This document shows, one piece after another, positions 48,731-52,806 of a stretch of DNA of 64,000 nt; the first letter of the stretch is position 1; the number at the start of each line of letters is the position of its first letter. The position numbers and the translations under genes were made by a program. Under the pieces are notes generated by a model, which was not told where the DNA came from, made no database searches, and was given only the letters and a program-made list of their open reading frames with translations. The stretch is from Clostridia bacterium (GTDB lineage: Bacteria > Bacillota > Clostridia > Oscillospirales > Acutalibacteraceae), in contig JAFRUO010000008.1 of assembly GCA_017438845.1 (NCBI GenBank), positions 1-64,000 on the forward strand. The letters are read 5' to 3'.

Positions 48731-50476
48731 ATGGCACTTGACGGAATTACATTACATTTTATAACAGAGGAGCTTAAAGAAAAAATTCTCCTTTCCAAGG
48801 TGGAAAAAATATATCAGCCCTCAAAATGCGAGCTTGTGTTTTTAATGAGAACACGGGCAGGGGCTTTTCGGCTTTATATGTCGGCTCAGGCAATTTCGCC
48901 GAGAATACAGCTGACGGCTTTTACACCCGAAAATCCGCAAAAGCCGCCAATGCTCTGTATGCTTTTCAGAAAACGGCTTACGGGAGCGGTGCTTGAGGAA
49001 ATCGAACAGTTTTCACTCGACAGGGTTTTGCGCCTTAAGTTTAACTGTACTAATGAAATCGGCGACAGACAGACGCTGTTTTTGTATATTGAAATAATGG
49101 CTCAGCGAAGCAACATTGTGCTGACCGACGCCGAGGATATTATTATTGACGCAGTAAAAAGGGTGGACGAAACCAAGTCCACCTACCGTGAAATTCTGCC
49201 GGGCTTAAAATATCTGCTTCCGCCTTCGCAGGGCAAGCTCGATATTACAACAAGCTCGGAGGACGAGCTTGTTGAGGCAGTGCTTTCGCACGGCTCTAAA
49301 AAGCTTTCTGCGGCGGTACTCAACTCTGTTACGGGCGTTTCCCCGATTGTCGCAAGAGAGCTCGCTTACAGAAGCTGCGGTGACGATATTCAGACCGATT
49401 TAATTACGCCCGACGGAAGGCAAAGGCTTTCGGAGTGCTTCTCTTTAGTAAAAAACATCATTATTAACGGCGAGGCATTGCCCTGTGCGGTTTTTGACAG
49501 TGACCGAAAGCCCGTTGATTTTTCTTTCTTTGACATAACTCAGTACGGCGATGCGCTCAGCAAAAAACAGTTTGACAGCTTTTCGGAGCTTCTTGATGAA
49601 TTTTGCTTTGAAAAGGACAGACTGCTTCGCATTAAAAACCGTGCCGGAGATCTTTTAAAGCTGCTTTCAAACACCAGGGAGCGGATATTGCGAAAAATCA
49701 ACCTCCAGAAGGCTCAGCTTGAAAAATGCGCCGACAAGGAGCAGCTTCGTATCTGCGCCGAGCTTATCGGCTCAAACCTTTACAGGCTTGAAAAGGGCGC
49801 GGCGTTTTATGACCTTGAGAATTATTATGACGGCGGAAAAATGCTTCGTATATCAGCCAACCCTGCGCTGACTCCCGTGCAGAATTCGCAGAAATATTAC
49901 AAGGATTACCGCAAGGCGGTCACAGCGGAAAAAATGCTTGACGACCTGATTGACAGCGCCGAACAGGAGCTTTCGTATATTGATTCCGTGCTTGACAGTC
50001 TTTCAAGGGCTGACACCGAGGCGGAGATTTCCGAAATCAGGCAGGAGCTTATAGGTGCAGGCTACTTAAGAAGCCGCTCAAAGGACAAAATCAAGCTTCC
50101 CAAAACGCTTCCGCCGTATGAGTTTACGACGAGCGACGGCTTTAAGGTGCTGGTCGGGCGCAACAATTTTCAGAACGATAAGCTCACCTTCAAGACCGCG
50201 AAGAATTATGATATGTGGCTTCACACGCAGTCGTTTGCAGGCTCGCATACAATTATCGTTTCCGATAACCGTGAAATCACCGACACCGCGATTTTTGAAG
50301 CCGCAAGAATAGCCGCAGGCTTCAGCTCGGCAAGCGAGGCGTACAAGGTCCCCGTTGACTACACGCTTGTTAAGAACCTTAAAAAACCGCCTAACTCAAG
50401 ACCGGGCAAGGTGATTTATCACGTTTATAACACAATCTATGTTGAACCTTTAAAGAGGGAGAGAGAACAAAAATGA
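48731..50476 (+). CDS. rqcH: ribosome quality control factor RqcH (NFACT family)
   Basis: A 581-residue NFACT protein. NFACT-N opens with GITLHFITEELKEKIL; the functional Asp-Arg pair is in SLDRVLRLKF; a coiled coil covers about 290-430; NFACT-R has GFKVLVGRNNFQNDKLTF and MWLHTQSFAGSHTIIV. It binds stalled 50S subunits and adds Ala tails. Older records call it a fibronectin-binding protein. It overlaps the next gene by 4 bases (ATGA). Confidence 0.93.
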   Translation: MALDGITLHFITEELKEKILLSKVEKIYQPSKCELVFLMRTRAGAFRLYMSAQAISPRIQLTAFTPENPQKPPMLCMLFRKRLTGAVLEEIEQFSLDRVLRLKFNCTNEIGDRQTLFLYIEIMAQRSNIVLTDAEDIIIDAVKRVDETKSTYREILPGLKYLLPPSQGKLDITTSSEDELVEAVLSHGSKKLSAAVLNSVTGVSPIVARELAYRSCGDDIQTDLITPDGRQRLSECFSLVKNIIINGEALPCAVFDSDRKPVDFSFFDITQYGDALSKKQFDSFSELLDEFCFEKDRLLRIKNRAGDLLKLLSNTRERILRKINLQKAQLEKCADKEQLRICAELIGSNLYRLEKGAAFYDLENYYDGGKMLRISANPALTPVQNSQKYYKDYRKAVTAEKMLDDLIDSAEQELSYIDSVLDSLSRADTEAEISEIRQELIGAGYLRSRSKDKIKLPKTLPPYEFTTSDGFKVLVGRNNFQNDKLTFKTAKNYDMWLHTQSFAGSHTIIVSDNREITDTAIFEAARIAAGFSSASEAYKVPVDYTLVKNLKKPPNSRPGKVIYHVYNTIYVEPLKREREQK

Positions 50477-51303
50477 AAAAACTGATTTCCGTAATAAGTC
50501 TTATGACTGCCGTTTTAATGCTTTCGACCGTATTCTGCTTTGCCGCAGAATACAGCTGTACGCTCAATTGCTCGTCCGACAAGGCGAAGGAGGGCGATGA
50601 GGTAAGCTTCAGCGTAGATGTCGGCGATGGCTTGTCGGGACTTGAGGCGTATGTTTACTATGACACCGACTGCTTTGAGTTTGTTTCGGGCGAGGAGGGC
50701 AGTGTTATGATGACTGCCGCCAACACCAAAAATCCGGGACAGATTCACATTGCAAGCGCCGCCATGGGCGCAACAAAGGCGGGCACCGTTTACTCGTTTA
50801 ACTTAAAGCTTATAAAGCAGGGCGGTAAGGTCAGCCTGAAGGTGGTTGACGCCACCGACGACAACGACAAAAATGTTGCGGTAAGCCTTAACAATACCGA
50901 AATCAGCTTCTCGTCCTCCGGTAAGGCGGACAAGCAGGAAACACCCAAAAGCGAACAGGAGGTTAACGAGATAGTAAGCCCTGAAAAAGGCGGTCAGAGT
51001 GATGCGGTCAAAAACGATGAGGCGGTGACCGATGCTTCGGGCAAGCCGATTGAAGGCTCAACCTACTTAACGGGTCAGGGCGCACAGGAGGCAAAGACTG
51101 ACGGTGAGGACGGCGAAGCCGAAGAAAAGGGAGAGGACACCAAGCTCGGAATCACCGCGGCGGTTACGGTCGGCGTGCTGTCTCTTGCGGCGGTTATAGT
51201 ACTGATTATCAGAAAGAAAACAGCCGGTGAAAATAATGCCTCGGCAGCCGATGAGGCAGAAAAAAACGGCAGTGAAAGCTCAGAGGATAACAGCGAATTA
51301 TAA
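50473..51303 (+). CDS. membrane-anchored cohesin-like surface protein
   Basis: A 276-residue protein with a signal peptide (1-23), a cohesin-like domain (about 25-150: EGDEVSFSVDVGDGLSGLEAYVYYDTDCFEFV), a Glu/Lys/Asp-rich linker and a membrane helix (about 220-242) with a charged cytoplasmic tail of about 30 residues. It holds one cohesin module on the membrane. Its start overlaps the end of rqcH, an odd partner. The next gene encodes a similar cohesin protein with a wall-sorting signal. Confidence 0.78.
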   Translation: MKKLISVISLMTAVLMLSTVFCFAAEYSCTLNCSSDKAKEGDEVSFSVDVGDGLSGLEAYVYYDTDCFEFVSGEEGSVMMTAANTKNPGQIHIASAAMGATKAGTVYSFNLKLIKQGGKVSLKVVDATDDNDKNVAVSLNNTEISFSSSGKADKQETPKSEQEVNEIVSPEKGGQSDAVKNDEAVTDASGKPIEGSTYLTGQGAQEAKTDGEDGEAEEKGEDTKLGITAAVTVGVLSLAAVIVLIIRKKTAGENNASAADEAEKNGSESSEDNSEL

Positions 51304-51358: not shown

Positions 51359-51449
51359 TTATTTAAATAGTTATAGGTTAATTTATGCCCTTTGCTATTA
51401 GACTACAAATTAAGCCGTGTACACGGCAAAGAAAAAGGCGGTAAAAACA

Positions 51450-52112
51450 ATGAAAAAAGTTCTTTCAGTTCTCGTAGCAGTTCTTCTTGTTGCATCAGCT
51501 TGCGTTCCTGCATTTGCAGCGGACGAAATCGTTATGACTCCCTCAGTTACAGAGGCTAAGGTCGGCGATGTTGTTACTATCAACTTTGACATTGCCGAGG
51601 GTTACACAGGTGTTACAGGCTCCATCAAATATGACCCCAACTATTTTGAGTATGTTGAGGATTCGGCTACTGCTACCGACTTAATGGTTACAGAGCTTAA
51701 CGACGGCATCGAAGGCGAAATCAAAGCGGCTTCCGCTAAGACTGAGCCCGCAGAGGCAGGCACACTTTTCTCAGCTCAGTTCAAGGTTAAGAAGGTTAAC
51801 GGTGAGTTCACCGCAGAGCTTGAAAAGCTTATCGACGAAAACGACAACGATGTAGCGGATACCGTTACAATCGCTCCCGTTGTTATCGCAGCTAAGGCTG
51901 ACGAGTCAACAACAAAGGCTTCCGATGAAACCACAACTAAGGCAGCAGAGCCCACAACAAAGGCTACTCCTTCAAGCAGCGGCTCAAAGAAAAGCAGCAA
52001 CTCCACAAAGAACCCCAAGACAGGCGGCGTTCAGGTAATCGGCAGTGCAGCTGCAGTTCTCGTTGCTTCCGCATTCGTTGCATACACAATGAAGAAAAAG
52101 ATTGAAGACTGA
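51450..52112 (+). CDS. cohesin-domain cell-wall protein with sortase-type signal
   Basis: A 220-residue protein. Signal peptide 1-23 (cleavage after AFA), cohesin domain about 24-150 (VTEAKVGDVVTINFDIAEGYTGVTGSIKYDPNYFEYVED), a Thr/Lys-rich linker (repeats of EPTTKA type), then NPKTGG, a hydrophobic helix and a KKK tail. NPKTG resembles a class B-type sortase motif. It should display one cohesin on the wall. The open frame has an upstream ATG at 51417, but the ATG at 51450 gives a normal signal peptide. A terminator follows. Confidence 0.82.
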   Translation: MKKVLSVLVAVLLVASACVPAFAADEIVMTPSVTEAKVGDVVTINFDIAEGYTGVTGSIKYDPNYFEYVEDSATATDLMVTELNDGIEGEIKAASAKTEPAEAGTLFSAQFKVKKVNGEFTAELEKLIDENDNDVADTVTIAPVVIAAKADESTTKASDETTTKAAEPTTKATPSSSGSKKSSNSTKNPKTGGVQVIGSAAAVLVASAFVAYTMKKKIED

Positions 52113-52132
52113 GAATTGAACACTTAAATATT

Positions 52133-52165
52133 AAGGCGTTCCGTAAGGAGCGCCTTTATTTTTTT
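52133..52165 (+). terminator. terminator of the cohesin gene
   Basis: AAGGCGTTCC and GGAGCGCCTT arms around GTAA, followed by a T-rich tract. Confidence 0.88.
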
Positions 52166-52167
52166 AT

Positions 52168-52203
52168 TTATAAAAAAAGAAACGCACTTAGGCGTTTCTT
52201 TTT
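52168..52203. terminator. bidirectional terminator beside the structured RNA
   Basis: AAAAAGAAACGC and GCGTTTCTTTTT arms around ACTTAG, with A/T runs on both sides. On the minus strand it follows the structured RNA candidate directly. Confidence 0.82.
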
Positions 52204-52214
52204 AACTGTTTTTC

Positions 52215-52435
52215 TTTTCTAACTAAAACCCACCCGACCGTAGCCGGTCAGTAATAACCTGCATGTTAAAGCAGGTGGGTGCCGGACGGATACTTACGTA
52301 TGCTCCCAACTTCCGTTTGCACGGGAGGTCTGCTCCACAGTACCCTGAACCTTAGCTCCCATTAAAAATGTGTTGGGTTAATAATAACCGGACATTTATC
52401 GCATCGGGCAGGCGTTATTAGTTTGTCATAAACAG
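52215..52435 (-). ncRNA. structured noncoding RNA candidate (raiA- or 6S-like, class not settled)
   Basis: The gap between the cohesin gene and the DUF1292 gene codes for nothing but is full of pairings: 52228-52232 with 52276-52280, hairpins 52236-52240/52245-52249 and 52258-52262/52271-52275, 52286-52290 with 52312-52316, crossing 52303-52307 with 52323-52327 (a pseudoknot), and 52382-52388 with 52414-52420. Longer-range pairs are 52233-52237 with 52404-52408 and 52244-52248 with 52387-52391. The minus strand is favoured because a terminator with seven T follows in that direction. Size (about 200 bases) and pseudoknots suggest the raiA motif of Firmicutes; a 6S RNA is an alternative. Confidence 0.6.
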
Positions 52436-52441
52436 TAAGAT

Positions 52442-52738
52442 TTATTCGTCCTTGATTTCGAACATCTCACTGAGTCTTTCCTCGAAAATTTCACCGACCT
52501 CGTCGAACTCAACGTCGTCCTCAATCGGGGCTAAGTAGGTTTCCTCGCCTTCCTCCTCGACCTTGAGTATGATAAGCTCGCCGTCGTCGTCAAGCACCTC
52601 GCTTGCCTCATCGTAAACGGGCAGGAGTGCGACATATCTTCCTTTGTCGGTTTCGATTCTGTCAAGCTCCTCGAAGGTGTGCTCAACTCCGTCCTCATCG
52701 ACTACCGATACTATATCGGGACCGTATTCTTCGCTCAT
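52442..52738 (-). CDS. DUF1292 family protein
   Basis: A 98-residue, very acidic protein. DIVSVVDEDGVEHTFEELDRIE and ILKVEEEGEETYLAPIEDDVEF are typical of DUF1292 (YrzB-like). The function is unknown; family members often lie near alaS and yrrK-yrrL, but not here. GGA precedes the ATG. The structured RNA lies just downstream and may share its transcript. Confidence 0.87.
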   Translation of the reverse strand: MSEEYGPDIVSVVDEDGVEHTFEELDRIETDKGRYVALLPVYDEASEVLDDDGELIILKVEEEGEETYLAPIEDDVEFDEVGEIFEERLSEMFEIKDE

Positions 52739-52806
52739 AGTTTAAATCCTTTCGTTTTCTTAATTATATTTTACAACTAAAGCGCCGCCGAGTCAACCGG
52801 AAAATC

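Follow-up and report, generated by a model that had tools for sequence, protein, structure and literature searches.

6S RNA is well known in bacteria, where it ties up RNA polymerase by mimicking a promoter. For 6S-1 of Bacillus subtilis, the available part of one report gives the pRNA as 5'-GUUCGGUCAAAACUA (PMC12005410), and the accessible text of a second describes a hairpin in the 3' strand of the central bubble there too (PMC8876501); in Campylobacter, 6S RNA has a sigma70 promoter of its own, according to the portion consulted of a third (PMC3847290). Among the titles and abstract openings of the open-licence literature, we found neither a DUF1292-6S unit nor an mRNA-derived 6S RNA. The locus described here lies in a stretch of 64,000 nucleotides (the window, meaning the whole stretch of DNA that was analyzed). 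The RNA itself is an ordinary 6S RNA; the unusual part is its probable mode of expression, a modest and testable novelty.

Identity, strand and fold of the RNA

The original prediction had placed a structured noncoding RNA in this gap, and this was borne out: there is no listed open reading frame of at least 50 aa in the gap, the folding energy of the minus strand is -84.3 kcal/mol (z -3.91; none of 200 dinucleotide shuffles was as good), and a search with the Rfam covariance models returned a match to RF00013 (6S RNA) at window positions 52417-52223, on the minus strand, with 55.7 bits and an E value of 2.3e-8. The match is full-length (model positions 1-187 of 187) and lies only 9.3 bits above the gathering score of 46.4; no second Rfam match in the 64 kb window passed its curated cut-off. 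We are nearly certain that the minus strand of 52223-52417 specifies a canonical 6S RNA with one gene copy; 6S RNA had originally been named as the alternative. The features of the RNA are as follows.

52223-52417, minus strand: 6S RNA (RF00013 footprint, 195 nt), with a full-length Rfam match and covariation in 35 relatives
52370-52384, minus strand: central-bubble 5' strand containing the putative pRNA template; position taken from the Rfam alignment, sequence nearly invariant in 35 genus rows
52303-52327, minus strand: terminal stem-loop, in which CUCCC/GGGAG is practically invariant and an alternative inner hairpin, CCGnn/nnCGG, covaries (helix 7)
52257-52276, minus strand: hairpin in the 3' strand of the central bubble, ACCUGC...GCAGGU (consensus helix 8, 6 pairs)

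The identity that had been preferred, a raiA-type RNA, proved wrong. Comparable length and dense noncoding structure speak for it; however, a raiA search (RF03072) of 52100-52500 was empty even at E 10, the best raiA score in the genome, 9.8 bits, is far short of the 101.3-bit cut-off, and we regard such an RNA at this locus as virtually inconceivable. None of the 36 matches that the same interval gave at E 10 or below was to HEARO, which had also been suggested as a check. The remaining 35 lax matches there, far below their cut-offs and mostly in the terminator region, were treated as chance.

Since the plus strand of the region also folds better than its 200 dinucleotide shuffles and almost as well as the minus strand (z -3.77), which a long inverted structure would lead one to expect, the strand was assigned by the RF00013 match and not by folding energy. 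This near-equal folding could speak for transcription of the region from the plus strand, either as a separate RNA or as a structure in the 3'UTR of the cohesin-like gene. Against this stand the confinement of the Rfam match to the minus strand and two plus-strand terminators that precede the region, and we consider a plus-strand product very improbable.

52133-52156, plus strand: terminator
52174-52203, both strands: palindromic intrinsic terminator with a T run on both strands; for minus-strand transcription, the end of the 6S unit

The second of these was listed for the plus strand, and its minus-strand T run was read from the sequence; the claim that the minus strand ends in a terminator was right.

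Next, we examined the fold in an alignment of the 35 genus 6S footprints, set in a single orientation. RNAalifold returned a rod of 46 pairs, consisting of a closing stem, a large central bubble and a terminal stem. With a consensus derived from the same 35 rows, which are related to each other, pairing was found in 97.1% of cells (shuffles: 88.2%, with 0/500 as high), and 20 of the 46 pairs had changed on both sides (shuffles: 13.5, with 0/500 as many). The covariation score was 0.300; shuffles gave 0.140, and slid versions did not exceed 0.053. The covariation in relatives proposed as a check is present for the rod, and in the closing stem four pairs have 14 to 16 compensated sequences each. 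The hairpin in the 3' strand of the bubble occurs in 35/35 genus rows, with its 6 pairs formed in 100% of cells and invariant.

The two crossing helices from which a pseudoknot had been proposed did not gain support. Complementary words for 52286-52290/52312-52316 exist, but they pair in 34.9% of cells versus 35.9% in shuffles, and no compensated change was seen in this helix among the 35 relatives. The helix 52303-52307/52323-52327 is paired in every row (175 cells, 100%) with a single change, C-G to U-G; it lacks covariation because it is practically invariant. Its inner bases compete with the covarying hairpin of helix 7.

The central-bubble strand of the genus rows, UAACCCAACA, is nearly invariant, and most family rows read UAACCC(U/A)AC. 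A pRNA copied from this conserved strand would read 5'-GUUGGGUUA, similar to the one of B. subtilis 6S-1. We located the start through the RF00013 alignment and the position of U44 of E. coli 6S RNA, which we take to be the pRNA start there; the predicted start is opposite C at 52372, and the predicted product is 5'-GUUGGGUUAAUAAU. By analogy with the known 6S mechanism, from which we infer both polymerase binding and pRNA release, the rod with its central bubble would mimic an open promoter and bind the sigmaA RNA polymerase holoenzyme at low nutrients; the polymerase would copy the short pRNA from the 5' strand of the bubble, whereupon the 6S RNA would be released.

Genomic neighbourhood and distribution among relatives

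The gene directly upstream of the 6S footprint, on the same strand, encodes a DUF1292 protein.

52442-52738, minus strand: DUF1292 gene, 98 aa (PF06949, 67.8 bits), whose stop codon lies 24 nt before the 6S footprint

The RNA had been placed between a cohesin gene and DUF1292. Its position between a secreted cohesin-like gene and a DUF1292 gene was confirmed; on the cohesin side, the adjoining plus-strand gene (51417-52112) has no Pfam match at 1e-3, and a weak Cohesin match (26.1 bits; cut-off 24.1) falls one gene further, in the plus-strand gene 50473-51303 just before it. The protein of 51417-52112 has a threonine-rich tail and a C-terminus in which NPKTG is followed by a hydrophobic stretch and KKK, an end that we take to resemble a sortase signal. 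The protein of 50473-51303 also has a hydrophobic stretch near its C-terminus.

A search of the genome with RF00013 returned one 6S match and no second copy. A 24-base piece of the genome (G000:C13:27927-27950) is 92% identical to part of a relative's 6S RNA, probably by chance. In the genus, 35 of 39 genomes have a 6S match (32 above the cut-off), one each; in the family, 257 of 300 (241 above); and in the class sample, 124 of 148 (117 above). Two family genomes, G067 and G235, have two matches each, possibly a 6S-1/6S-2 pair or an assembly artefact, and the other matching family genomes listed have one. True loss of 6S RNA in the four genus genomes that gave no match was considered and not supported: DUF1292 matches are missing too (0/4), and one of the four, G029, has a piece resembling the 3' end of 6S RNA at bases 1-30 of a contig. 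Assembly gaps are therefore the likeliest reason for the missing matches.

DUF1292 is directly upstream of 6S on the same strand in 35/35 genus loci and likewise in 28/30 best-scoring and 19/20 lower-scoring family loci (47/50). In the class, this arrangement was found in 9/30 best-scoring and 16/57 other loci. The first 30 family and the first 30 class loci were the best-scoring ones, while the 20 lower-scoring family and the 57 further class loci were hand-picked for different families or genera. The stretch separating DUF1292 from 6S contains a terminator-like site in 0/35 genus loci and in 0/28 and 1/19 family loci; within 150 bases downstream of 6S, such a site is present in 23/35 genus and in 14/30 and 12/20 family loci.

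Predicted promoters of the DUF1292-6S gene pair

We scored a sigmaA-type promoter as a site matching at least 10 of 12 consensus positions, up to 90 bases before 6S or up to 130 bases before DUF1292. The test included seven loci whose first 16 bases contain neither CCT nor CTGC. For the DUF1292 promoter, one linked class locus was too short upstream, leaving 8 of 9 in that sample; all other rows were scored. Before 6S, the best site in the window reaches 7/12, when compared to 10/12 for the site before DUF1292.

52768-52796, minus strand: sigmaA-type promoter TTGACT-17-TAAAAT before DUF1292, matching 10/12 consensus positions; proposed promoter of the DUF1292-6S unit

Counted as consensus matches, promoters before 6S were found in 10 of 107 loci in which DUF1292 precedes 6S (genus: 4/35; family: 1/28 and 2/19; class: 1/9 and 2/16; shuffles: 2-4%) versus 38 of 65 loci in which it does not (family: 1/2 and 0/1; class: 14/21 and 23/41). 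The difference has a Fisher p of 5e-12 over all loci and of 4e-5 in the class samples alone (linked: 3/25; unlinked: 37/62), values that are optimistic because the loci are related. Promoters before DUF1292 were found in 20/35 genus and in 24/28 and 18/19 family loci (62/82 together; shuffles: 3-5%), and less often in the linked class loci (5/8 and 6/16). The same picture emerged when promoters were scored over slightly different search distances with a bonus for TG.

Given the fixed DUF1292 neighbour and this promoter pattern, the 6S RNA is probably a cleavage product of the DUF1292 mRNA, derived from its 3' end. Transcription would start at the promoter in front of DUF1292, 6S would form the 3' part of an mRNA that ends at the terminator 52203-52174, and the tail of this mRNA would then be trimmed to the mature 6S ends. 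A DUF1292-6S transcription unit with processing to 6S would be the simplest reading of the sequences, and we consider it fairly probable that 6S RNA is made in this way in the family; there, the 6S gene seems to have no dedicated promoter and to be expressed as part of the DUF1292 mRNA.

The same 6S RNA might instead be transcribed from an unrecognised promoter of its own, located in the last DUF1292 codons or in the short gap, with DUF1292 a mere conserved neighbour. The 10 linked loci with a 10/12 site before 6S agree with this, and there is a precedent in lactic acid bacteria, in which, as far as the available part of the source goes, the promoter region of 6S and the 3' end of the rarA gene upstream overlap (PMC8414754). 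The end of DUF1292 may contain a promoter of another type. However, genus loci have such sites before 6S far less often than before DUF1292 (4/35 versus 20/35), and the window itself offers the 7/12 site versus the 10/12 promoter of DUF1292. We regard an own promoter as plausible and yet clearly doubtful.

Processing from the DUF1292 mRNA can be taken further. Across the whole family, 6S RNA might lack a promoter of its own and arise solely through processing of the DUF1292 (YrzB-like) mRNA at its 3' end. The level of 6S RNA would then depend on the DUF1292 promoter and an RNase, and DUF1292 might be functionally tied to 6S or to RNA polymerase control; we put this forward tentatively, with slightly more doubt than belief. 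Viewed as an RNA, the locus adds one 6S gene to those described, while the gene pair predicts a whole family that makes its 6S RNA from an mRNA tail. If this is true, an abundant regulator of RNA polymerase would be coupled to a protein of unknown function, and DUF1292 would have its first functional lead.

Comparison with described 6S systems

The RNA shares with RF00013 (ssrS; 6S-1/bsrA in B. subtilis) the full-length covariance match, the closing stem, the central bubble and the terminal stem, as well as the occurrence of one gene per genome with a terminator downstream. With B. subtilis 6S-1 it also shares the 3'-bubble hairpin, as described in the available part of PMC8876501, and a predicted pRNA product that starts GUU.GGU, as judged from the accessible text of PMC12005410. 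The pairing of the upper arm is different: Rfam's own RF00013 pairs, applied to the 35 genus rows, are formed in 76.2% of cells versus 97.1% with the clade's own consensus, and the upper arm therefore departs from the Rfam 6S consensus. Also different from RF00013 6S RNA is the setting of the gene: it follows DUF1292 immediately and mostly lacks its own promoter.

Conserved neighbours are in themselves shared with other lineages. In lactic acid bacteria, the neighbours of 6S are likewise conserved at the family level, as stated in the portion consulted of PMC8414754; according to the same portion, rarA is upstream there and 6S has its own promoter, whereas here DUF1292 is upstream and the proposed promoter precedes DUF1292. 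Similarly, the available part of PMC3847290 describes a close linkage of 6S RNA to a protein gene, purD, in Campylobacter and Helicobacter; there, 6S lies upstream of purD, whereas at the locus described here 6S lies downstream of the protein gene.
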